Of a stretch of 64,000 bases of DNA, positions 50,262 to 63,095 are shown in pieces. The stretch's first letter is position 1. Each line of letters begins with the position of its first letter. The stretch lies in NCBI RefSeq assembly GCF_030499535.1, contig NZ_JASTLB010000001.1:5828001-5892000 (forward strand). The letters run 5' to 3'. The stretch comes from Streptomyces sp. TG1A-8 (GTDB taxonomy: Bacteria; Actinomycetota; Actinomycetes; Streptomycetales; Streptomycetaceae). A program made the translations under genes and the position numbers. The notes below the pieces were generated by a model. The model searched no databases. It was given only the letters and a program-made list of their open reading frames with translations, and was not told the DNA's origin.

Positions 50262-50969
50262 ATGGCAGAGCAGCTGACGGAACTGGCCGACGACCGCGCC
50301 CTCCTGGGGCGCACCAGCACCGCCGAACGCGTCTCCGACATCCTCAGGAGCCGCATCGCCGAGGGCTACTTCCCGCCGGGCACCCGCCTGTCCGAGGACG
50401 GCATCGGCGGGGCGCTCGGCGTCTCCCGCAACACCCTGCGCGAGGCGTTCCGGCTGCTCACCCACGAGCGCCTGCTCGTGCACGAACTCAACCGGGGCGT
50501 GTTCGTCCGCGTCCTGACCGTGGAGGACGTGGAGGACATATACCGCACCCGGACCCTGGTCGAGTGCGCCGTCGTGCGCGGCCTCGGCGAGCCGCCGTAC
50601 GCGCTCGGCGCACTGGCCGCCGCCGTCGAGGAGGGACAACGGGCCGCCCACGACCACGACTGGAAGGCACTGGGCACCGCCGACATCCACTTCCACCGGG
50701 AACTGGTCGCCCTGGCCGCCAGCGAACGCACCGACGAGCTGATGCGCAGCGTCTTCGCCGAACTCCGCCTGGCCTTCCACGTCGTGGACGACCCGCGCCG
50801 GCTGCACGAGCCGTACCTCGTCCGCAACCGCCGGCTCCTGCGGACGCTGGAGGCCGGCGACCGGCAGGAGGCGGAGCGGATGCTGGAGACCTACCTCGCG
50901 GACTCGCTGGAACGGGTCGTGGAGGTCTACCGGCGGCGCATCGGCGAGGACGGCACCGGCGCCCGCTGA
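50262..50969 (+). CDS. GntR-family (FCD) transcriptional regulator
   Basis: 235 residues. Winged helix-turn-helix (STAERVSDILRSRIAEGYFPPGTRLSEDGIGGALGVSRNTL, residues 18-58) and an FCD effector domain whose metal ligands are visible in DIHFHRELVALA and a later His. A TTGAAT hexamer at about 50249 lies 7 bp before the ATG, so it may be leaderless. Divergent from the pxp operon it likely represses; the effector is probably 5-oxoproline or a related acid. Confidence 0.9.
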   Translation: MAEQLTELADDRALLGRTSTAERVSDILRSRIAEGYFPPGTRLSEDGIGGALGVSRNTLREAFRLLTHERLLVHELNRGVFVRVLTVEDVEDIYRTRTLVECAVVRGLGEPPYALGALAAAVEEGQRAAHDHDWKALGTADIHFHRELVALAASERTDELMRSVFAELRLAFHVVDDPRRLHEPYLVRNRRLLRTLEAGDRQEAERMLETYLADSLERVVEVYRRRIGEDGTGAR

Positions 50970-51022
50970 GCCGTCGCCGGGAGCGTTCCCGCCTCGTTTG
51001 GATCGATGTCGGACCGAGGACC

Positions 51023-51028
51023 TAGTCT
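51023..51028 (+). promoter_or_regulatory. Leaderless-type -10 box for the SMC operon
   Basis: TAGTCT ends 7 bp before the GTG at 51036, so the first SMC-operon gene is probably translated from a leaderless transcript that starts after GntR. Confidence 0.5.
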
Positions 51029-51035
51029 GTGCACC

Positions 51036-52562
51036 GTGACTTCGCCTGCACCGACGGACCCCGTTCCGCCCCAGCTCAGCGCGGGGCCGCGCCCGGCACC
51101 GGGCCCGGCCGCCGACGAGGGACTGGCGCGGCGGCTGCGCGCGCTCGCCTGCACCGCGCCGCTGCACGACCTCGACGCCCGCAAGGCCAACCTGGCCGGC
51201 GAGTACTCGGTGTACGGCATGGCCGAGGTGGCCCTGGCCGCCATCGACCTGGTCACCCTGAACATGGACTTCGACACGGGCGCCGACCACGAGCAGGTCG
51301 TGGCCCGGCTCGTCCCGCGCGTCGCCGCCCAGGCCCCGGGGCGCCCCGCCGCCGAGCACGAGCGCGTGGCCCGCTGGGTCCTGGAGAACCTGATCAACGT
51401 GGGCAGCGTGGACCGCGGCTTCCGCGCGGTGTACGGCACGTTCGCGCCGGACGGCACCTACGTCCGCCGTGACTACGACTTCAAGCTGATCGAGGAGGTC
51501 CCCGGCCCCGGCGGCACGGTCTACCTGCGCACCACCGACGAGGCGGTCAACGTCCTGGTCGGCGCCCTGGACACGGACGTCACCAGTGCCCAGATCGCCG
51601 CCGAGGTCAAACTCGAGGTGCTCATCAGCCGCGGCCGCCTCGCCGACGCCCAGCTCGCCGCCGAGCAGGCCCGCTACCGCACGGTGCAGTACTCCGAGAC
51701 CCTGCGCCGCGCCCTGGAGGCCACCCGGCGCAACGTCCGTGCGGTCGACTGGCTCAAGGCCGTCCCGGACATGATCGCCGAGGCCCTGGACCACGTGGCG
51801 GACCGCTACCGCCACGAGAACGCGATCCTGACCAACATCCGCAAGGCCCGCGACGAGACCGAGGAACCCGAGCACAAGCGGCGCGCCGCCGAGCTGGTGG
51901 ACATCGTCAAGGACTGCATCCGCCGGCACACCCAGCTCCAGTCGCGCCTGCTGGAGGCGGGCCCGCTGTTCCGCGCCGAACAGGACCGGCAGGCCTTCGC
52001 CACCCCCGCCACGACCTCCGGGACGGACCTGTACGGCCACCTGTTCGCGCCGCTCCTGCCGCTGCCCCTGGAGCGGGCGATCCGGGTCACGGACGCCTTC
52101 TTCGCGAGCGGCACGGGACTGCGCACGCCGGTGTCGGTGCGGGTGGGCGACCTGGTCGGCATCCTGCTGACACCGCCCGTGGAGCGGGAGCACCTGGGCG
52201 CGGAGATGCCGGAGCCCGACCTCATCGCCACGCCGGACGACAGCCGGTTCAGCGAGGAGCAGCTGGCCGCGGCGACGCGGCTGCTGGACCTGCCGGCGGA
52301 CGCGCCGCGCAGGCTGTCCGGACTGCTGGCGCAGGCGCGCGCGGAGGATCCCGACCTGCCCTACCTCGTGGCCCTGCTGGCCGTCCACGCGGCCAGCCCT
52401 CCCGTGGGCACCGCCTACCGGCAGGGCGAGGAGAAACTGCTGTTCGCCGTGGACGACGGCACCGAGCTGGACGACCCCGAGTTCGGCGGGGCCGACCTGA
52501 TCGTGGGCACCGCCCTGCTGGACGCGGCGGGGATGGCGGCCGACCGGGCGGAGGCCGCGTGA
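51036..52562 (+). CDS. Kleisin-like (MukF/JetA-type) subunit of an SMC complex
   Basis: 508 residues, largely helical. An N-terminal winged-helix-like region (about 30-170; GEYSVYGMAEVALAAIDLV) leads to a coiled-coil middle (about 180-300; QAEQARYRTVQYSETLRRALEATRRNVRAVDWLK and NAILTNIRKARDETEEPEHKRRA). The C-terminal domain ends acidic. This order matches kleisins of the MukF/MksF/JetA type. I chose the leaderless GTG at 51036; an ATG at 51006 adds 10 residues. The next two genes are KITE- and SMC-like, supporting the role. No TIGR02677-type (Wadjet II) motif was recognised. Confidence 0.7.
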   Translation: MTSPAPTDPVPPQLSAGPRPAPGPAADEGLARRLRALACTAPLHDLDARKANLAGEYSVYGMAEVALAAIDLVTLNMDFDTGADHEQVVARLVPRVAAQAPGRPAAEHERVARWVLENLINVGSVDRGFRAVYGTFAPDGTYVRRDYDFKLIEEVPGPGGTVYLRTTDEAVNVLVGALDTDVTSAQIAAEVKLEVLISRGRLADAQLAAEQARYRTVQYSETLRRALEATRRNVRAVDWLKAVPDMIAEALDHVADRYRHENAILTNIRKARDETEEPEHKRRAAELVDIVKDCIRRHTQLQSRLLEAGPLFRAEQDRQAFATPATTSGTDLYGHLFAPLLPLPLERAIRVTDAFFASGTGLRTPVSVRVGDLVGILLTPPVEREHLGAEMPEPDLIATPDDSRFSEEQLAAATRLLDLPADAPRRLSGLLAQARAEDPDLPYLVALLAVHAASPPVGTAYRQGEEKLLFAVDDGTELDDPEFGGADLIVGTALLDAAGMAADRAEAA

Positions 52563-52668
52563 CGGATCCGCCGGTGAGCCGGCGCGCCGCCCCCGCCCCC
52601 GCGCCCGGCCGCGCCCGCTTCGGGGCGAGCGTCCCCGGTCCCGCAGCCACCAATGAGGAGTCGCAGTC

Positions 52669-53547
52669 GTGAGTGAGCAGGCCGAGTGGAGTGACACGCA
52701 GGCCCCGGCCCCGTCGGCGTCCGCCGCCGTCACCCCCGCCGACGCCGCCGACGCGGCGCGGCTCGTCGCCTTCGGGCTGCAGCCCAAGCTGCAGCCCGCG
52801 CGGGACCAGGAGTACACCGAGCTGCTGCGCCGCCACCGGGACGACCCCGCGTTCGCACGGCTCGCCGACGCCGTCGCCGCCGGTCTCGGCCTCGTCGTGC
52901 TGGAGGTCTCCCCGCGCGCGGGGATGGCCGTCACCGCCGCCGAGGACTCGGTGTTCGCCGTCCGCATGGGCGACTACGCGCGCCGCACCGCCGCCGACTC
53001 CGGCGACCGCTTCCTGCACGGCCTGGCCCATCTGGCCGTCGCCGTGCTGGCGTTCCCGCGCCCCGAGGACCTGGCCGACGACTCCTACATCGGCCGGGTC
53101 ACCGTCAACGGCGTCGACGCCTTCGTCCGGCAGGCCTGCCGACGCCTGGAGGAACGCGCCGAGGAAGAGGGCCGCAACACCGACCCCGAGACCGACGCGC
53201 CCGGCCTGGAGTCGGCCTGGCGGATCTGGGCCCGGCGCAGCGCCGCCGGAGCCACCAAGGACGCCCGCCGGCTGCCCGGTTCCACCACCGGGATCGTCGG
53301 CAAGGCGGTCGCCTTCCTGACCGACTCGGGCTTCCTGCAGCGCACCGGCGACGACAACGGCGGCACCTACCGCACCACGGCCCGCTACCAGCTCCAGGTC
53401 CGCGACATGGCCGGCAGCGCCGCGCTGGCCGAACTGCTGGAGCTGGGCGTCGTCCCGGTCACCGACGGCACGGCCGGCCTGCTCCCCGCCGAGGACACCG
53501 AGGACCTGGACCTGGTGGCCGACGCGGGGCTGCCGTTCCACTCCTGA
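52669..53547 (+). CDS. KITE-like (MukE/JetB-type) subunit of an SMC complex
   Basis: 292 residues predicted to hold two winged-helix domains: DAARLVAFGLQPKLQPARDQEYTELLRRHRDD at the start, and a second one around residues 200-250 ending in VAFLTDSGFLQRTGDDNGGTYRTTARYQLQVRDMAG. This wHTH repetition, the length and the position between kleisin and SMC genes fit MukE/MksE-type accessory subunits. GAGGAG lies before the GTG at 52669. The gap to the first gene is 106 bp, and 74 bp separate it from the SMC gene. Confidence 0.68.
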   Translation: MSEQAEWSDTQAPAPSASAAVTPADAADAARLVAFGLQPKLQPARDQEYTELLRRHRDDPAFARLADAVAAGLGLVVLEVSPRAGMAVTAAEDSVFAVRMGDYARRTAADSGDRFLHGLAHLAVAVLAFPRPEDLADDSYIGRVTVNGVDAFVRQACRRLEERAEEEGRNTDPETDAPGLESAWRIWARRSAAGATKDARRLPGSTTGIVGKAVAFLTDSGFLQRTGDDNGGTYRTTARYQLQVRDMAGSAALAELLELGVVPVTDGTAGLLPAEDTEDLDLVADAGLPFHS

Positions 53548-53621
53548 GGGCCGCGCACCCGAAGGCGCCGCCCACCCCGCACCACCGCACGATGTCCGAA
53601 GACTTACGACGAGAGTCCGCC

Positions 53622-56600
53622 ATGTACGAGCTGTCCCGGGTCCGCCTCTACTCCATCGGGCCCGCCGGTGCGCGCTACGCCGACACCGTGCTTGACCTGC
53701 GCGGTGTCGGCGAACCGGTGCCCGACCCCGCGCCCATGCAGGCGGAGTTCTTCGCGGAGGAGCCGTCCGGCCCGCCGCGCCGCCCCGCACCCGCGGGCGT
53801 GCTGTTCCTGGAGAACGGCGGCGGCAAGTCCGTCCTGCTCAAGCTGATCTTCTCGGTGATGCTGCCCGGCCACCGCAACACGCTGGGCGGCGCCAGCTCC
53901 GGCGTGCTGCGCAAGTTCCTGCTCGCCGACGACTGCGGACACGTGGCCCTGGAGTGGCAGCACGTGCTGACCGGCGAGTGCGTCGTCGTCGGCAAGGTCA
54001 GCGAGTGGCGCGGGCGCCAGGTCTCCAACGACCCCCGCAAGTTCGCCGAGGCCTGGTACTCCTTCCGCCCCGGACCCGGGCTCAGCCTGGACAGCCTCCC
54101 CGTCGCCGAGTCCACCGCCGTACGGCCGCCCGTCGAGGGCCAGTCGGGCGCCCAGGGCCGCCGCCGCACCATGAAGGGCTTCCGGGACGCCCTCACCGAG
54201 GCCGGCAAGGCCTATCCGCACCTGGAGGTGCACTGGGAGGAGATCCACGACCGCTGGATCGAGCACCTCGGTGACCTCGGCCTCGACCCCGAGCTCTTCC
54301 GCTACCAGAGGGAGATGAACGCGGACGAGGGCGAGGCCGCCGGTCTGTTCGCGGTCAAGAAGGACTCCGACTTCACCGACCTGCTGCTGCGCGCCGTCAC
54401 CGACACCCGTGACACCGACGGCCTCGCCGACCTCGTCAGCGGCTTCGGCAACAAGCTGGGCCGGCGCGCCGAACTGATCGCCGAACGCGACTTCACCGCC
54501 GGCTCGGTCGACCTGCTCGGGCGGATCGTCGAGGCCGCCGACGCCCGCGCCCGCGCCCGGGACGTCCACGCCGGCGCCGAACGCCGCACCCGCACCCTGG
54601 CCCGGCGGCTGTCCGCCCGGGCCGTGCGGGAGCGGGCGCGGGCCGCCGACCTCGCCCAGCGGGTCACGGCCGCCGCCGACGCGGTCACGCACGCCGGGGG
54701 CGCCCGCGAGCGCAGCGCCCGCATCGCCGCCGAACTCGCCTACCGGCACGCCTCCCTGGCGCTCGCCGCAGCCGAGAAGTCCGCCGCCGCGCAGAAGCGC
54801 GAGCTGGCCGACGCGCGCACCCTGCACTCCGCCTGGCAGGCCGCCGAGGCCGTCCTGCGCCACCGCGCCGCCGCCGACCGCGTCGCGCGCGTGTCCGCCG
54901 CCATCCAGGAGGCGGAACGGGACGCCGCCCCCGCCCTCGCCGCCCGCGCCAGGGCCGCCGCGGACCTCGTACGCGCCCTGCAGGCCGCCGCCGGGCGCGC
55001 CGAGGCCCTCGCCAACGAGGAGGAGGAGCGCTCCGCCGCGCTCCAGGAGGTCGGCGACGCCGCCCACCGGGACTCCACCGGCGCGGCCACCGAGGCGCAG
55101 CGCGCCCGCAGCGAGGCCGGACACCTGCGCCAGCGCCTCGCCGAGGTCGAGCAGGAGACCGCCGAGGCGGTCCGCGCGGGCTGGCTCGACGACAGCGCCC
55201 CGGACGCCGACCCCGCGCGCGCGGCGCTCGCCGCCAGCGACGCCGGGAAGACCGCCGTGGCCGCCTGGGACGCGGCCCGCGAGGCCGCCCGACGGGCCAC
55301 CGAGCACGCCCGGGAGGCGGCCGCCGCCGAGTCCCGCGCGGAGCTGACCGCGGCCCGCGCGGCGGACGCCGCGACCGCCGCCGAGCGCGCCCACGCCGCC
55401 GAGCGGCGCCTGGCCGAGGCACTGGCGGCCGAGGAACGGTTCGCCGAGCTGCTGAGCCTGCCCGGCGCCCCGGGACCCGGCCGGGCCCGGGTGCCCGGCC
55501 CCCGGACCGAGGCGGACGGCACGGCCGGTGCCCGCACCGGCGCCGACCGCGGCACGGCGGACGCCGAGCGCGGCGCCGACCGGTACGGCGCCGGCGAGCC
55601 GGTGCGCTCCGGCGCGGACGGCACCGGGCGTCCGCCCGCCGACGGCCCGCTGACCCCCCAGGACCTGGACCGCTTCGCCGACGAGCTGCGCGAACTGCTC
55701 GACGACGCCGTCGGCTCCGCCGAACGCCACCTCTTCGACCTGCGCACCGCCGCCGCCGACGACGCCCGCATCCTCGGCGCCCTCGGCGACGGCGGGCTGC
55801 TGCCGCCCGGCCCGGACGTGCTGGCCACCGTCGAGTTCCTCGGCGAGCACGGCATCCCCGCGCTGCCCGGCTGGCGCTACCTCGCGCAGGCCGTCGACCC
55901 CGCCGACCACGCCCGCGTGCTCGCCGCCCGCCCCGAACTGGTCGACGGCGTCATCATCACCGATCCCGACACGCACGCGCGGGCCCGCCGGACACTCGGC
56001 GAGGCCGCCCTGCTGCCCCGTTCCGCGGTGGCCGTCGGCACCGCCGCCGCGCTGCTCGCCCCCACCCCGGCGGCCGACGCCACCTCCGGTGACGTCTTCC
56101 TCGTCCCGCCGAACCCCGCCATGCACGACGAGCACGCCGCCGACGAGGAGCGGCAGGCGCTGCGCGCCCGGGCCACCGCGCGCGACGAGGAGATCCGCAC
56201 CCTCGCCGCCCGCCTCGGCAAGGACCGCGAACTGGCCGCACGGCTCGCCTCCTGGCGCACCGGCTGCCCGGCCGGCCGGCTCACCGAGCTGGCCGAAGCG
56301 GCCCGGGACGCGCGCGCGTTCGCCGAGGAGGCCGAGGCCGAGCTGGCCAAGACCCGGACCGTGCGCGCGGAGGCCGACGAGGCCGCCGCCGAGGCCGTGC
56401 AGGTCCGCGACGAACGGCAGGAGGCCGCGCAGAGGGCCCGCCGCGCCGCCGACGCCCTCGCCGGGCTCGCCTTCCGGCTGCGCGAGCGCGCCGGCTGGCA
56501 GGCGAAGCTCCGCGAACTCGTCGACGAGGCCGCCGAGTCGGAGGCCCGGGCCCAGGCCTGCCTGGAGCGTGCCCGCGCGGCCGACGAGGACCGCCGCGCC

Positions 56601-58349
56601 GCCCAGCGGGCCGCCGACGACGCCCGCCGCACCGCGCGGGCCCTGCGCGCCGAGCGCGCCGAGATCGCCGGTGCCCCCGACGACGTGCCGGAGGGCGGCG
56701 AGGACGCGCCGAAGGCGTCCCTGCCCGCCCTGCGCGAGGCCTACCGGGCCGCTTCCCAGGTCTACGAGAAGGTCGGTGTCGGCGCCGACCTGCGCGCCGA
56801 ACAGGCCCGCGCGGAGAGCGACGAGAGCGCGGCCCGCGCCGAGCTGGACCGGCTCAGCAACAAGGTCCGCACCCGGGCCGAGCAGCTGCTGCAGTCCCCG
56901 GACGGCTCCGACGGCCCCTCCCGGCAGGCGGCCGCCGCGCGCGCCGAGGAACTGGTGCAGTTGCTGGAGACCCGCATGTCCACCGCGAGCGAGCAGCTCG
57001 GCCGGCTGCGCGGCGAGACCGAGCGCCTCGCCCCCGAGGACGGCGAGGCGCACACCGAGCTGCCCGGGGAACTCGTCCCGCGCGACGCCGAGCACGCCCA
57101 GGCGCTGCTGCGCACCGCCACCGCCGAACTCGCCGCCCGCACCGATGCGCTGGCCGAGGCCCGCGGGGCCCACGCCGAGCTGCTGGAGGCGCACCGGGCC
57201 GCCGAGGACGCCGCCGGCGGCTTCGACGAGATCGCCGCGATGCTCCGCGACCTGCTGCGCGAGCACGTTCCCGAGGAGGGGCGCGAGGAGCCGGAGCCGT
57301 ATCCCGGCACCCTGGAGGAGGCCCGGCACTCGGCCGCCGAGACCCGCCGCTCGCTGCGCGGCTGCGCCGCCGACCTGTCCACCGCCGAGACGGCCGTGCG
57401 CGAGGCGGGCGACGTGCTCGTCCGGCACGCCAACTCCACGCGCTACGAACAGGTCCGCACCCCGGCCCGGCAGCAGATCCGCGAGCTGCCCGCCGCCGCA
57501 CTGCCCGAGCACGCGCAGAAGTGGGCCGACGCCTTCGCGCCCCGGCTGCGCGTCCTCACCGACGAGCTGGCGCAGCTGGAACGGAACCGGGACTCGATCG
57601 TGGACCGGCTGCGCGGTCTCGTGGAGTCGGCGCTGGCGACGCTGCGGTCCGCCCAGCGCCTCTCCCGCCTGCCCGAGGGGCTCGGCGAGTGGTCGGGGCA
57701 GGAGTTCCTGCGCATCCGCTTCGAGGAGCCCGACCAGGCGACGCTCACCGAACGGCTCGGCGAGGTCGTCGACGAGGCCACGCGCGCGGCCGTGAGGAAG
57801 AACTCCGACCTGCGCCGCGACGGCATGTCCCTGCTGCTGCGCGGAGTGGCCGCGGCACTGCAGCCCAGGGGAGTGGCCGTGGAGATCCTCAAGCCCGACG
57901 CCGTCCTGCGCGCCGAGCGGGTGCCCGTCGGGCAGATGGGCGACGTCTTCTCCGGAGGCCAGCTGCTGACCGCGGCCATCGCGCTGTACTGCACGATGGC
58001 CGCGCTCCGGTCGAACGACCGGGGCCGGGACAAGCACCGGCACGCGGGCACGCTGTTCCTCGACAACCCCATCGGCCGCGCCAACGCCACCTACCTGCTG
58101 GAGCTGCAGCGGGCCGTGTCCGACGCGCTGGGCGTGCAGCTGCTGTACACGACCGGCCTGTTCGACACGACCGCGTTGGCGGAGTTCCCGCTGGTCATCC
58201 GGTTGCGCAACGACGCCGACCTCCGGGCGGGCCTGAAGTACATCAGCGTGGAGGAACACCTCCGGCCGGGGCTGCCCCAGCAGCCGCAGGCGGGGGAGGC
58301 GGTCCACAGCGAGATCACCGCGACGCGGATGTTCAAGCGGCCGGCCTGA
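53622..58349 (+). CDS. SMC-like ATPase (MukB/JetC-type), 1575 residues
   Basis: The N-terminal head carries a Walker A-like LENGGGKSVLLKL (about residues 63-75). Two long Ala/Glu/Arg-rich coiled coils (about 290-600 and 840-1330) flank a central globular hinge (about 670-830) preceded by a low-complexity Gly/Asp linker (about 625-675). The C-terminal head has signature FSGGQLLTAAIAL (about 1443) and Walker B TLFLDNPIG with D1481 followed by Asn instead of the usual Glu. Length and order fit condensin-like SMC proteins. I chose the ATG at 53622 (MYELSRVRLYSIGPAGARY); an ATG at 53592 is in frame. No toprim/nuclease gene (JetD) follows. Confidence 0.82.
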   Translation: MYELSRVRLYSIGPAGARYADTVLDLRGVGEPVPDPAPMQAEFFAEEPSGPPRRPAPAGVLFLENGGGKSVLLKLIFSVMLPGHRNTLGGASSGVLRKFLLADDCGHVALEWQHVLTGECVVVGKVSEWRGRQVSNDPRKFAEAWYSFRPGPGLSLDSLPVAESTAVRPPVEGQSGAQGRRRTMKGFRDALTEAGKAYPHLEVHWEEIHDRWIEHLGDLGLDPELFRYQREMNADEGEAAGLFAVKKDSDFTDLLLRAVTDTRDTDGLADLVSGFGNKLGRRAELIAERDFTAGSVDLLGRIVEAADARARARDVHAGAERRTRTLARRLSARAVRERARAADLAQRVTAAADAVTHAGGARERSARIAAELAYRHASLALAAAEKSAAAQKRELADARTLHSAWQAAEAVLRHRAAADRVARVSAAIQEAERDAAPALAARARAAADLVRALQAAAGRAEALANEEEERSAALQEVGDAAHRDSTGAATEAQRARSEAGHLRQRLAEVEQETAEAVRAGWLDDSAPDADPARAALAASDAGKTAVAAWDAAREAARRATEHAREAAAAESRAELTAARAADAATAAERAHAAERRLAEALAAEERFAELLSLPGAPGPGRARVPGPRTEADGTAGARTGADRGTADAERGADRYGAGEPVRSGADGTGRPPADGPLTPQDLDRFADELRELLDDAVGSAERHLFDLRTAAADDARILGALGDGGLLPPGPDVLATVEFLGEHGIPALPGWRYLAQAVDPADHARVLAARPELVDGVIITDPDTHARARRTLGEAALLPRSAVAVGTAAALLAPTPAADATSGDVFLVPPNPAMHDEHAADEERQALRARATARDEEIRTLAARLGKDRELAARLASWRTGCPAGRLTELAEAARDARAFAEEAEAELAKTRTVRAEADEAAAEAVQVRDERQEAAQRARRAADALAGLAFRLRERAGWQAKLRELVDEAAESEARAQACLERARAADEDRRAAQRAADDARRTARALRAERAEIAGAPDDVPEGGEDAPKASLPALREAYRAASQVYEKVGVGADLRAEQARAESDESAARAELDRLSNKVRTRAEQLLQSPDGSDGPSRQAAAARAEELVQLLETRMSTASEQLGRLRGETERLAPEDGEAHTELPGELVPRDAEHAQALLRTATAELAARTDALAEARGAHAELLEAHRAAEDAAGGFDEIAAMLRDLLREHVPEEGREEPEPYPGTLEEARHSAAETRRSLRGCAADLSTAETAVREAGDVLVRHANSTRYEQVRTPARQQIRELPAAALPEHAQKWADAFAPRLRVLTDELAQLERNRDSIVDRLRGLVESALATLRSAQRLSRLPEGLGEWSGQEFLRIRFEEPDQATLTERLGEVVDEATRAAVRKNSDLRRDGMSLLLRGVAAALQPRGVAVEILKPDAVLRAERVPVGQMGDVFSGGQLLTAAIALYCTMAALRSNDRGRDKHRHAGTLFLDNPIGRANATYLLELQRAVSDALGVQLLYTTGLFDTTALAEFPLVIRLRNDADLRAGLKYISVEEHLRPGLPQQPQAGEAVHSEITATRMFKRPA

Positions 58350-58979: not shown

Positions 58980-59394
58980 CACCGTGTCACTCCCCACCGC
59001 AGGCAGTCCCCTCACCCGGTGTCCGTGGACCCCGTCTCCCCAGTGGCTGCCCGGCTTGCGCTGTTTTACGCCGCCGGGGCGCGGCATGCGGCTGCTGTGG
59101 CCGATTCCACGCCCGCTTCCCGTGAAAGGACGAACGGCGGCCCGGAAAGATTCCCGGTGGCGAAAGATTCCGGCCAACCAGTTGTCCGTACTGCGCCGAT
59201 GGGCCCCCGGCGGCCGCGTGCCGCACGGGGGCAATCTCCCGCAATGCCCGGACAACTCGCCATCTCTCGCCCCGGATGCGGAAGTTCATCCTCCGGCCAT
59301 GTCTTCGAGTTAACCAGGAGGCGGTAGTAGGCTCGCGCCGTTTGTTAACGCACGTGTGCGCCCCCGGCCGACGGGGGCCGAGCTGGGGGAGGCC
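58980..59394 (+). promoter_or_regulatory. Gene-free region before the conservon
   Basis: No supported gene in this 415-bp gap. Two GTTAAC hexamers occur about 32 bp apart near 59311 and 59343, bracketing GTAGTAGGCT, a plausible -10 region (TAGGCT). GGGGGAGG is the RBS of the kinase gene at 59395. Control elements of conservon promoters are not well known. Confidence 0.4.
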
Positions 59395-62232
59395 ATGCGC
59401 TTTCGCGGGAAGTCGGTCCGCCGGAAGATCGTGGCGCTGCTTCTCGTGCCGCTGGTGTCCCTGGCCGCCATCTGGGGCTTCGCCACGGTGCACACGGGGC
59501 GTGAGGCCGCCGACCTGGTCCGCGTGTCCAGGGTGGTGCAGGACATCGGCTACCCCACCGAGGACGCCGTCCGCGGCCTGCAGCAGGAACGGCGCCAGAG
59601 CCTCGTCTACCTCGCCGACCCGCGGGCCCCCGGTGCCCTCGCGGCGCTGCACCGCGCCCACACCGCCACCGACCGGACCGTCACCGAGCTCCGCAGGCAC
59701 GCCGGGGACCGCGGCCTCCTCGACGGCATGGACGCGGACGACAACGAGCACTTCACCACCGTCCTCGACGCCTTCCACGGGCTGGACGACCTGCGTCGCG
59801 GCGTCCGGGAGCGCTCGGTCACCCGCGCCCAGGCCCTCGACCTCTACAACCGGCTCGTCGACCCCTGCTTCTCCCTGCTCGCCAGCCTGGACGGCATCGA
59901 CGACGTCGAGATGGACAAGCAGGGGCGGGCCCTGGTCAACGTCATCCGTGCCCGGGAACTGCTCTCCCGCGAGGACGCCCTGCTGGGTTCGGCGCTGGTG
60001 GCCGGCCGGCTCTCCCGTGACGAGACCCGGGACGTCTCCGACCTCGCCGCCCAGCGCACCCTGCTGTACGGCATCAGCCTGCCGCTGCTGCCCGCCGCGG
60101 AACGCGACCGGTACGAACGCCTCTGGAAGAGCGCCACCACCGCCCCGCTGCGCACGGCCGAGCGGAACGTGATCGGCACCGGCTCCGCAGTGCCCGGCGG
60201 CGTCACCGCGCGGAACTGGGACACCGCCGCGGCGAACGTCCTGGGCGACCTCGGCCGCCTGGACGACCAGGTCGGCGACCGGCTCCAGGACCGCACGCGG
60301 CCCGTGGCCGTGGGGGTGATCGCCCAGGCGGCCGCCGCCGGCCTCCTCGGCCTCGTCGCCCTCCTGCTCTCCCTGGTGCTCTCCGTGCGCGTCGGCCGCG
60401 GTCTCGTCCGCGACCTCAAGCAGTTGCGCCAGGAGGCGCACGAGGCGTCCGGGGTGCGGCTGCCCAGCGTGATGCGCCGCCTCTCCGCCGGCGAACAGGT
60501 CGACGTCGAGACCGAGGTCCCGCGCCTGGAGTACGAGAAGAACGAGATCGGCGAGGTCGGCCAGGCGCTCAACACCCTGCAGCGCGCGGCCGTCGAGGCA
60601 GCGGTCAAACAGGCCGAACTGCGGGCCGGGGTCTCCGAGGTCTTCGTCAACCTCGCCCGCCGCAGCCAGGTGCTGCTGCACAAGCAGCTCACCCTGCTCG
60701 ACACCATGGAGCGCAGGACCGAGGACACCGACGAACTCGCCGACCTCTTCCGCCTGGACCACCTCACCACCCGCATGCGCCGGCACGCCGAGGGCCTGGT
60801 GATCCTCTCCGGTGCCGCGCCGTCGCGGCAGTGGCGCCGCCCCGTGCAGCTCATGGACGTCGTCCGCGCCGCCGTCGCCGAGGTCGAGGACTACGAACGC
60901 GTCGAGGTCCGCCGCCTGCCGCGCATCGCCGTCAACGGGCCGGCCGTCGCCGACCTCACCCACCTCGTGGCCGAACTCCTGGAGAACGCCACGGTGTTCT
61001 CGCCCCCGCACACCGCCGTCCAGGTCCTCGGCGAACGGGTCTCCAACGGCTTCACCCTGGAGATCCACGACCGGGGGCTCGGCATGACGGCCGAGGCGCT
61101 GCTCGACGCCAACCTCCGGCTCGCCGAGACCCCCGAGTTCGAACTCTCCGACACCGACCGGCTCGGCCTGTTCGTGGTCAGCCGCCTCGCCCGGCGCCAG
61201 CGCGTCCGGGTCTCCCTCCAGCCGTCCCCCTACGGCGGCACCACCGCCGTGGTCTTCATCCCCGACACGCTGCTCAGCGACGACATCCCGGAGACCGACG
61301 GCACCGGCTTCCGCCTCGACCGGGAGCGCTCCCCGCAGGAGGCCGAGCCCACGGCGCGGCGCCTCACCGCGCGTGCGCGGGTGCCGGAGCTGCCGCAGGT
61401 GCCGGGGCTGCCCGCTCTGCCGGCCTCCTTGCTGGGCCCGGTCGAGCTGGAGGCGCCGGTGGACCTGGACGCCCTCGACGACTTCCCCGGGGCGCTGCCG
61501 GAGGAGGACAGCGAGCGCGGCGGACTCTTCCGCCCCCGCCACTTCCCGGCCCGCGCCGACGACCCGGCGGTCCCCCGGCTGAGCGGACTCCCCCCGTCCG
61601 CCTCCCCGCGCGCCGACGACCCCGGGGAACGCACCGGCGGACCCGTACCGCTGCCCCGGCGGCGGACGCCCAAGCTGGTCAGCTCGCACGGCAGGCCGGT
61701 CGCCGGGCAGGGCCCGCGCCGCGACCCGGACGGACAGCCCCCGGCCGGCCCCCGCCGTGCCGAGCCGGGCGGACCGGCCGCGCTGCCGGTCCGCCGCCGC
61801 GAGGAGCCGGACCGGCGGGCCGCGGGGTCCGCCGAGCGCGCCGGGGCACGCCCGGCTGCTCCGGGCGACGGCGGGCACGAGTCCTCCGGGACGCCGTCGC
61901 CGCCCGGGCGCCCCCGGTCCGCGACCGCCGCTTCCGGGGCCGGCCGGGACGACGGCACGCCGCCCGCCGGCGGCACGGCCCCCGCGTCCGCTCCCGGCGC
62001 CGGCCCGCTGCCCCGGCGCCGGCGCCAGGCCAGCCTGGCCCCCCAGCTCAAGCAGGACCCCGAACGGCGCGCCGAACACGAGGCGCGGCCCGAGGACCGC
62101 GACGCCGACGAGGTCCGCAGCCGGATGGCCTCCCTGCAGCGCGGCTGGCAGCGCGGCCGCGAGGAGAACGCCGCCGGCGACGGCGCGCGGAACGGCACAG
62201 CACGAGGAACGACAAAGGGGGACGGTCCATGA
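59395..62232 (+). CDS. Conservon sensor protein, nitrate/nitrite-sensing-domain histidine kinase-like
   Basis: 945 residues. Short cytoplasmic start, TM1 (about 10-32), an extracellular helical NIT-type domain (about 35-300; EERRQSLVYLADPRAPGAL), TM2 (about 303-330), a HAMP-like linker, then a HATPase_c domain with N-box ELLENATVFSPPHT (about 527) and G-boxes. No clear phosphoacceptor His box is seen, as in other CvnA proteins. The C-terminal 300 residues are Pro/Arg-rich and disordered. The ATG at 59395 has GGGGGAGG upstream. First gene of a conservon, coupled to the next by ATGA. Confidence 0.9.
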   Translation: MRFRGKSVRRKIVALLLVPLVSLAAIWGFATVHTGREAADLVRVSRVVQDIGYPTEDAVRGLQQERRQSLVYLADPRAPGALAALHRAHTATDRTVTELRRHAGDRGLLDGMDADDNEHFTTVLDAFHGLDDLRRGVRERSVTRAQALDLYNRLVDPCFSLLASLDGIDDVEMDKQGRALVNVIRARELLSREDALLGSALVAGRLSRDETRDVSDLAAQRTLLYGISLPLLPAAERDRYERLWKSATTAPLRTAERNVIGTGSAVPGGVTARNWDTAAANVLGDLGRLDDQVGDRLQDRTRPVAVGVIAQAAAAGLLGLVALLLSLVLSVRVGRGLVRDLKQLRQEAHEASGVRLPSVMRRLSAGEQVDVETEVPRLEYEKNEIGEVGQALNTLQRAAVEAAVKQAELRAGVSEVFVNLARRSQVLLHKQLTLLDTMERRTEDTDELADLFRLDHLTTRMRRHAEGLVILSGAAPSRQWRRPVQLMDVVRAAVAEVEDYERVEVRRLPRIAVNGPAVADLTHLVAELLENATVFSPPHTAVQVLGERVSNGFTLEIHDRGLGMTAEALLDANLRLAETPEFELSDTDRLGLFVVSRLARRQRVRVSLQPSPYGGTTAVVFIPDTLLSDDIPETDGTGFRLDRERSPQEAEPTARRLTARARVPELPQVPGLPALPASLLGPVELEAPVDLDALDDFPGALPEEDSERGGLFRPRHFPARADDPAVPRLSGLPPSASPRADDPGERTGGPVPLPRRRTPKLVSSHGRPVAGQGPRRDPDGQPPAGPRRAEPGGPAALPVRRREEPDRRAAGSAERAGARPAAPGDGGHESSGTPSPPGRPRSATAASGAGRDDGTPPAGGTAPASAPGAGPLPRRRRQASLAPQLKQDPERRAEHEARPEDRDADEVRSRMASLQRGWQRGREENAAGDGARNGTARGTTKGDGP

Positions 62233-62699: not shown

Positions 62700-63095
62700 A
62701 TGAGCGGAGACGGTCAGGCAGGAAGCCACTGGTTCGACGACGAGGCGGGACCGGTCGTCCGTCCGTACGCCATGACGCGTGGCCGCACCACGAGCCCGGC
62801 CCAGCACCGCCTCGACCTGATCGCGGTGGTCGTCACGGAGCCCGGCGCCGACGACGCCGAGGCGGACACGACGCTCTCCCCGGAACACGTGGACATCGTC
62901 CGGCTCTGCCGGGACGCGCCGCAGTCGGTCGCCGAACTCGCCGCGGAGCTCGACCTGCCCACCGGAGTGGTGCGCGTCCTCATCGGAGACCTCGTGCACG
63001 CGGAACTCGTCCACGTGACGCGTCCGGTGCCCCCGGCCGAGCTGCCGGACGAGAGCATCCTGCGTGACGTGATCGCCGGCCTCCGGGCGCTGTGA
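62700..63095 (+). CDS. DUF742 protein (CvnC-like)
   Basis: 131 residues: N-terminal GPVVRPYAMTRGRTTSPAQHRLDLIAVV and a helix-turn-helix-like region (VDIVRLCRDAPQSVAELAAELDLPTGVVRVLIGDLV). DUF742 members are the third component of conservons. Starts 9 bp after the LC7 gene. Confidence 0.92.
   Translation: MSGDGQAGSHWFDDEAGPVVRPYAMTRGRTTSPAQHRLDLIAVVVTEPGADDAEADTTLSPEHVDIVRLCRDAPQSVAELAAELDLPTGVVRVLIGDLVHAELVHVTRPVPPAELPDESILRDVIAGLRAL

Follow-up and report, generated by a model that had tools for sequence, protein, structure and literature searches.

A JetD-less Wadjet type III operon, conserved across Streptomyces and preceded by a RecA-NDp-type promoter

A stretch of 64,000 nucleotides from Streptomyces sp. 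TG1A-8 (contig NZ_JASTLB010000001.1, positions 5,828,001 to 5,892,000; hereafter the window) contains three open reading frames (ORFs) that lie on one strand with short gaps and together fill positions 51036–58349. They are identified here as jetA, jetB and jetC of a Wadjet type III system without the nuclease gene jetD. We propose, as the probable course of events, that a Wadjet type III JetABC set lost JetD, became a vertically inherited core set of Streptomyces, and is now transcribed from a DNA-damage promoter of the RecA-NDp (PafBC) type. A preliminary description, made from the letters of the window, had read the three ORFs as a kleisin/KITE/SMC operon (SMC, structural maintenance of chromosomes); this arrangement is borne out, and PADLOC and BLAST place it in Wadjet type III.

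JetA (51036..52562, plus strand, 508 residues) matches the PADLOC model JetA3 (PDLC00567, E 6.1e-188), and the SMC-type ATPase JetC (53592..58349, plus strand, DUF3584) matches JetC3 (PDLC00588, E 0, 1420 bits). Counted from its first ATG, JetC has 1585 residues, not 1575 as first given, and it carries the ATPase motifs ENGGGKS (Walker A), FSGGQ (signature) and LDNP (Walker B). Judged by these profiles, JetA and JetC are Wadjet type III subunits. JetB (52669..53547, plus strand, 292 residues) has no direct match to the PADLOC models, JetB3 included. By BLAST it shares 54% identity over 249 residues with JetB of a JetD-bearing Rhodococcus plasmid operon (JetABCD), and 33% with JetB of Polaromonas, which itself matches the JetB3 model at E 7e-5. 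On this homology and the gene order, JetB is assigned, less firmly than JetA and JetC, as the probable KITE subunit. Profile searches of Pfam and NCBIfam returned no family above cut-off for any of the three proteins, and nothing relevant was found in PHROGs or in sequence searches of the Protein Data Bank (PDB) with JetA, JetC, a JetA profile and a JetB profile. The profile check proposed in the preliminary description thus succeeds for JetA and JetC through PADLOC, and yields no model for JetB.

The AlphaFold model of JetA points in the same direction, as its ten best Foldseek matches are chains of MukBEF, MukEF and MukF entries (best E 4.6e-4), taken as MukF by their length; the model is consistent with a kleisin of MukF-like fold. 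The JetB model (pLDDT 42) was too poor in quality for a fold search. Of the two folds expected earlier, the kleisin is supported and the winged-helix (KITE) fold of JetB is not confirmed.

The absence of an adjacent JetD, also claimed in the preliminary description, holds. No JetD match was found at E≤0.1 in the window, which gave one chance match at E 0.15, nor at E≤1e-3 on either strand of 80 homologous Streptomyces loci (the best 80 of at least 577 confirmed stretches), 79 of which include 1.2 kb or more beyond jetC. In the TG1A-8 genome as a whole, neither the JetD3 model (PDLC00594) nor the type I JetD_C model (PF09983; searched in this genome) had a match at E≤10. The Pfam model as sole test for JetD was dropped, as it misses three of the five plasmid JetD3 proteins tested, and PDLC00594 was added. 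These five come from a search of 72,556 plasmid records, five of which encode a JetA homologue (E≤1e-5); in each of them JetD3 is the fourth gene (PDLC00594, E 1.2e-57 or better), and the absence of JetD from the present operon therefore looks derived.

A JetD homologue encoded elsewhere and co-occurring with the operon had been named as evidence against a JetD-less complex, and part of this is indeed found. The TG1A-8 genome encodes a DUF2399 protein, JetD2, which weighs against a simple claim that JetD is missing. It belongs, together with JetA2, JetB2 and JetC2, to a complete Wadjet type II operon of its own (L245:1334-9805, corresponding to about 3347333-3355804 of G000:C1), some 2.5 Mb from jetABC. 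As to co-occurrence, DUF2399 is present in only 54 of 150 Streptomyces genomes, and 91 of the 147 genomes with JetA3 contain neither a strong JetD3 nor a DUF2399 match (E≤1e-10), or 83 of 147 if weak JetD3 matches also count as JetD. The core JetABC therefore appears to be independent of either nuclease.

The survey of conservation suggested in the preliminary description shows that JetA3 (E≤1e-5) is near-universal in Streptomyces, with matches in 147 of 150 genomes; in 145 of these E is 1e-170 or lower, and the matches of G121 (E 1.2e-30) and G081 (E 3.9e-101) are weaker. The three negatives are two assemblies with more than 1000 contigs and one that is 78% complete. The earlier view that this would be a second condensin-like machine of the genus is supported. 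JetD3 was detected at E≤0.001 in 21 of the 150 genomes, strongly (E<1e-40) in 11, while the matches in the other 10 are short and weak (E 2e-7 to 8e-4). All 11 genomes with a strong JetD3 have at least two JetA matches, and a further locus comprising all four genes, A to D, is seen in the 11 regions fetched from JetD3-positive genomes. As a strong JetD3 occurs only along with a second JetA, the JetD-less JetABC appears to be general in Streptomyces, a minority adding a JetD-bearing Wadjet III. A second JetA3 match in the absence of a JetD3 match also occurs in two further genomes, G128 and G141, which possibly carry additional JetD-less copies.

Outside Streptomyces, a class-wide survey (296 genomes, 114 genera) found JetA3 at E≤1e-10 in 43 genomes, 28 of Streptomyces and 15 of one other family. 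The best named matches to the JetA of this second family are from Frankia and Pseudofrankia, while Kitasatospora, Actinacidiphila, Peterkaempfera and other Streptomycetaceae are also among the named matches; from these similarities the family is taken as Frankiaceae. JetA3 is present in 19 of 35 genomes of this Frankiaceae-type family and JetD3 in five of 35, one of them partial. None of its 19 fetched JetD-less loci has a JetD match within the stretch, 12 of which reach at least 1.2 kb beyond jetC; in four genomes with a JetD-less locus, JetD3 is found elsewhere.

Family trees recover both JetD-less groups, the Streptomyces core and the Frankiaceae-type copies, with full support (100/100). 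In the JetA tree (54 rows: 15 core sequences, one of 16 chosen from the 80 loci having been dropped, 19 Frankiaceae-type and 20 JetD-bearing) all JetD-less copies form one side of a branch (support 88/94). In the JetA+JetB tree (34 rows: 10 core, 14 Frankiaceae-type and 10 JetD-bearing, the most distant rows being omitted) four JetD-bearing rows group with Frankiaceae-type rows (88/81), with a p-AU of 0.028 against placing one sequence, L187, with the Streptomyces core. L184, the contig of which stops within jetC, was scored as JetD-bearing on the basis of a JetD3 on a different contig of its genome; L183, consisting of the end of JetC and JetD only, was excluded. A single loss of JetD was considered as a settled reading and abandoned, since it is supported in the first tree and not in the second. 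Because the two trees disagree, JetD may have been lost either once or twice across these two groups.

The Streptomyces JetABC is a syntenic, intact core system under purifying selection. Median identity to the window over the 80 loci is 93% for JetA and 88% for JetC. Full-length frames were found for JetA in 77 of 78, for JetB in 79 of 79 and for JetC in 80 of 80 cases, and the three JetC ATPase motifs are identical in all 81 copies (the window and the 80 loci). Median dN/dS values, calculated from 20–21 sequences, are 0.095 for jetA, 0.124 for jetB and 0.151 for jetC. A GntR gene adjoins jetA on its upstream side in 74 of 76 Streptomyces loci. Of the 80 stretches, 70 contain a gene for a major facilitator superfamily (MFS) protein and 68 one for a D-glutamate cyclase. 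There is no conserved gene downstream of jetC: in 76 core loci a gene was called there, and the biggest cluster of like genes has 14 members; in 50 of the 76 the gene lies on the opposite strand.

A second mark of conservation is found directly before jetA. Alignment of the upstream DNA of the window and 78 Streptomyces loci shows a phylogenetic footprint at 50995..51035 (plus strand), a near-invariant block beside the start codon, with diverging sequence farther upstream. The block reads TGTCRG-N10-TAGTCT and is followed 7 nt later by the GTG start of jetA. We take TGTCRG-N10-TANNNT near a start codon to be the consensus of RecA-NDp, a LexA-independent DNA-damage promoter activated by PafBC. 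It has an exact match at 51007..51028 (plus strand; TGTCGG-ACCGAGGACC-TAGTCT), and the start at 51036, with its GTG codon 7 nt after the predicted -10, is of the leaderless type. An in-frame ATG upstream of jetA at 51006 falls within the promoter. Exact matches precede jetA in all 76 core loci with sufficient upstream DNA. A scan with promoter and terminator consensus sequences found nothing.

Pattern searches of the whole genome indicate that this motif is not peculiar to jetA. The strict form (TAGTNT) has four sites, compared to none in the control, preceding jetA, sbcD, murB and one gene that looks helicase-like by eye (no Pfam match at E 1e-10). The relaxed form has 56 sites, compared to five in a reversed-pattern control; a likely ORF starts within 160 nt of 50 of these sites, at a distance of 5–10 nt in 26 cases. 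Of these 50 ORFs, 20 were picked by eye for Pfam analysis, and 17 have domains of repair, recombination, replication, or general nucleases and helicases; as the choice was not random, this tally describes the kind of regulon and not its purity. They include RecA, UvrA, UvrB, UvrC, RecQ, XseA, RuvC, an MGMT-type protein, uracil-DNA glycosylase, SbcD, a UvrD-type helicase, a DnaX-type protein and a KaiC-like ATPase (read by eye as RadA), as well as Exo_endo_phos, RNase_T, DEAD and PD-(D/E)XK proteins. The promoter of sbcD is of the same TGTCGGACC variant as that of jetA. The other three of the 20 are MurB and two ORFs without a match at E 1e-10. At the cell-wall gene murB (L149), a strict RecA-NDp-like site is combined with a start of the leaderless type, hinting at a possible link between DNA damage and wall synthesis.

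These patterns suggest that a PafBC-type damage regulon may exist in Streptomyces. In the literature, S. coelicolor SCO6735 is described as UV-induced and preceded by a RecA-NDp promoter (PMC5087735), mycobacterial PafBC as activated by single-stranded DNA (ssDNA) (PMC11804915), and PafBC homologues as encoded in Streptomyces (PMC9380542). The last of these, a 2022 paper on S. venezuelae, reported that the mycobacterial PafBC motif did not appear to be conserved in an initial search, and left the question of the regulon open.

The exact site is also found near jetA in 6 of 19 JetD-bearing loci (L172, L173, L176, L179, L184 and L081), of which the first three are close relatives and the last has its site at -122, and in only 2 of 19 Frankiaceae-type JetD-less loci. 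L175, where the fetched stretch stops at jetA, was omitted from the promoter count. The chance expectation is about 0.00015 sites per 460-base region, from the control density of five sites in 15.3 Mb of strand. Control by damage or ssDNA may therefore be older than the loss of JetD in Streptomyces, and such ancestral control may have served plasmid sensing. The pattern suggests that plasmid defence by JetD-bearing actinobacterial Wadjet III could be inducible by ssDNA or DNA damage.

We propose the following mode of action. DNA damage, or ssDNA from another source, would activate PafBC, which would direct the housekeeping RNA polymerase to the jetA promoter, and JetABC would be produced from a leaderless mRNA. 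JetC dimers, closed by JetA and JetB, would entrap DNA and reel it in through ATP hydrolysis. Without JetD a finished loop would not lead to a cut, and JetABC would rather compact, tether or align damaged DNA of the chromosome, in the manner of the DNA organisers MukBEF and MksBEF. Induction of jetABC by damage through PafBC, assembly of the complex, loop extrusion and the chromosomal role are predictions from sequence. Chromosome organisation, sporulation and plasmid restriction had been named earlier as candidate roles; in our reading the RecA-NDp-like promoter makes chromosome maintenance linked to DNA damage the likeliest role, ahead of sporulation or restriction.

JetABC might instead have remained an anti-plasmid system that works without a nuclease, induced by ssDNA from plasmids that enter the cell or replicate, and compacting or silencing small circular DNA uncut, as has been proposed for human Smc5/6. 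In the literature JetABC is presented as the sensor of Wadjet, and Smc5/6 is said to compact circular DNA (PMC10586767); the ssDNA-responsive promoter type at some JetD-bearing loci would fit plasmid sensing. We nevertheless consider this unlikely, as the near-universal, syntenic and slowly evolving JetABC is unlike the patchy JetABCD (11 of 150 genomes). Linear plasmids, moreover, are common in Streptomyces and are not cut by Wadjet. Still less probable is a restriction machine that borrows a nuclease in trans, either JetD2 of the type II Wadjet or, for example, SbcCD. The complete type II operon in the genome and the promoter variant shared with sbcD speak for it, but JetD2 has JetABC partners of its own, and the counts given above (DUF2399 in 54 of 150, strong JetD3 in 11 of 150, neither in 91 of the 147 genomes with JetA3, or in 83 of 147 with the 10 weak JetD3 matches counted) weigh against it.

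It is very improbable that the genome encodes a JetD so divergent that the models miss it. Model sensitivity is a real concern, given the plasmid proteins missed by the Pfam model, but PDLC00594 detects all five of these and nothing in the TG1A-8 genome, and no conserved gene follows jetC. The idea of a remnant decaying after the loss of JetD has that absence in its favour and little credibility otherwise, in view of dN/dS values around 0.1, near-complete retention of full-length frames, invariant ATPase motifs and the promoter footprint.

The proposed JetD-less core set resembles Wadjet type III (JetABCD) in its JetA3 and JetC3 subunits, its JetB by homology and the gene order A-B-C; it differs in lacking the JetD3 nuclease, in its near-universal and syntenic rather than patchy occurrence and in the RecA-NDp-type promoter of 76 out of 76 loci. 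In Wadjet, JetABC acts as sensor and motor and JetD as the cutter (PMC10586767). The nearest precedent is MksBEF of Pseudomonas aeruginosa, which likely arose through loss of JetD and contributes to chromosome organisation (PMC10586767). The Streptomyces complex, by comparison, is of type III, occurs in Actinomycetota and has a DNA-damage-type promoter; its loss of JetD was presumably a separate event. With MukBEF it shares a kleisin, a probable KITE subunit and an SMC protein without a nuclease, and MukF provides the best structural matches of the JetA model; MukBEF, however, replaced Smc-ScpAB in enterobacteria (PMC10586767), whereas Streptomyces retains its SMC condensin as well (PMC8410768), and JetA, JetB and JetC have no Pfam match above cut-off. 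MksBEFG of Corynebacterium glutamicum and EptABCD of mycobacteria are likewise actinobacterial Wadjet-type SMC complexes, but both have kept the MksG/JetD nuclease, and their targets are plasmids (PMC10123090, PMC10586767).

The neighbourhood of the operon agrees with the preliminary description. After jetC follows a minus-strand ORF from 58434, membrane-protein-like by eye and without a Pfam match, and then conservon genes for a NIT/HATPase kinase (59356-62232) and a DUF742 protein (62700-63095). The gene directly upstream of jetA (50262-50969) encodes the GntR/FCD regulator. It was considered as a partner of JetABC and rejected, as no match to it turned up in the stretches fetched for Frankiaceae-type and JetD-bearing loci; in our view its association is with the divergent MFS gene.

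A survey of Actinobacteria reported Wadjet to be enriched in Streptomyces and located in the chromosome arms (PMC10482375), and we met no mention of a JetD-less core copy in the part of it available to us. Neither was a JetD-less Streptomyces JetABC described in the titles and abstract openings that were searched, a coverage that leaves out most subscription journals and preprints. New here is the RecA-NDp/PafBC-type promoter directly before jetA in all 76 loci. The motif result also bears on the question of a PafBC-type Streptomyces damage regulon that was left open in 2022 (PMC9380542). A review has put forward nuclease loss from defence systems as the origin of complexes that organise chromosomes, MksBEF being one example (PMC10586767). 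Since JetD-bearing and JetD-less copies are found together in single genomes (11 of 150 Streptomyces), such a switch from defence to maintenance could be studied directly. More tentatively, the genus may possess a core, DNA-damage-induced SMC complex that descends from a weapon against plasmids. In its role this complex would be a bacterial counterpart of Smc5/6; it would be co-regulated with recA, uvrABC, ruvC and SbcD and would hold or compact broken DNA of a linear, multi-copy genome. Streptomyces, a genetic workhorse, thereby gains an unexamined second condensin-like machine, and JetABC may have turned from a weapon into a machine for the care of the genome.

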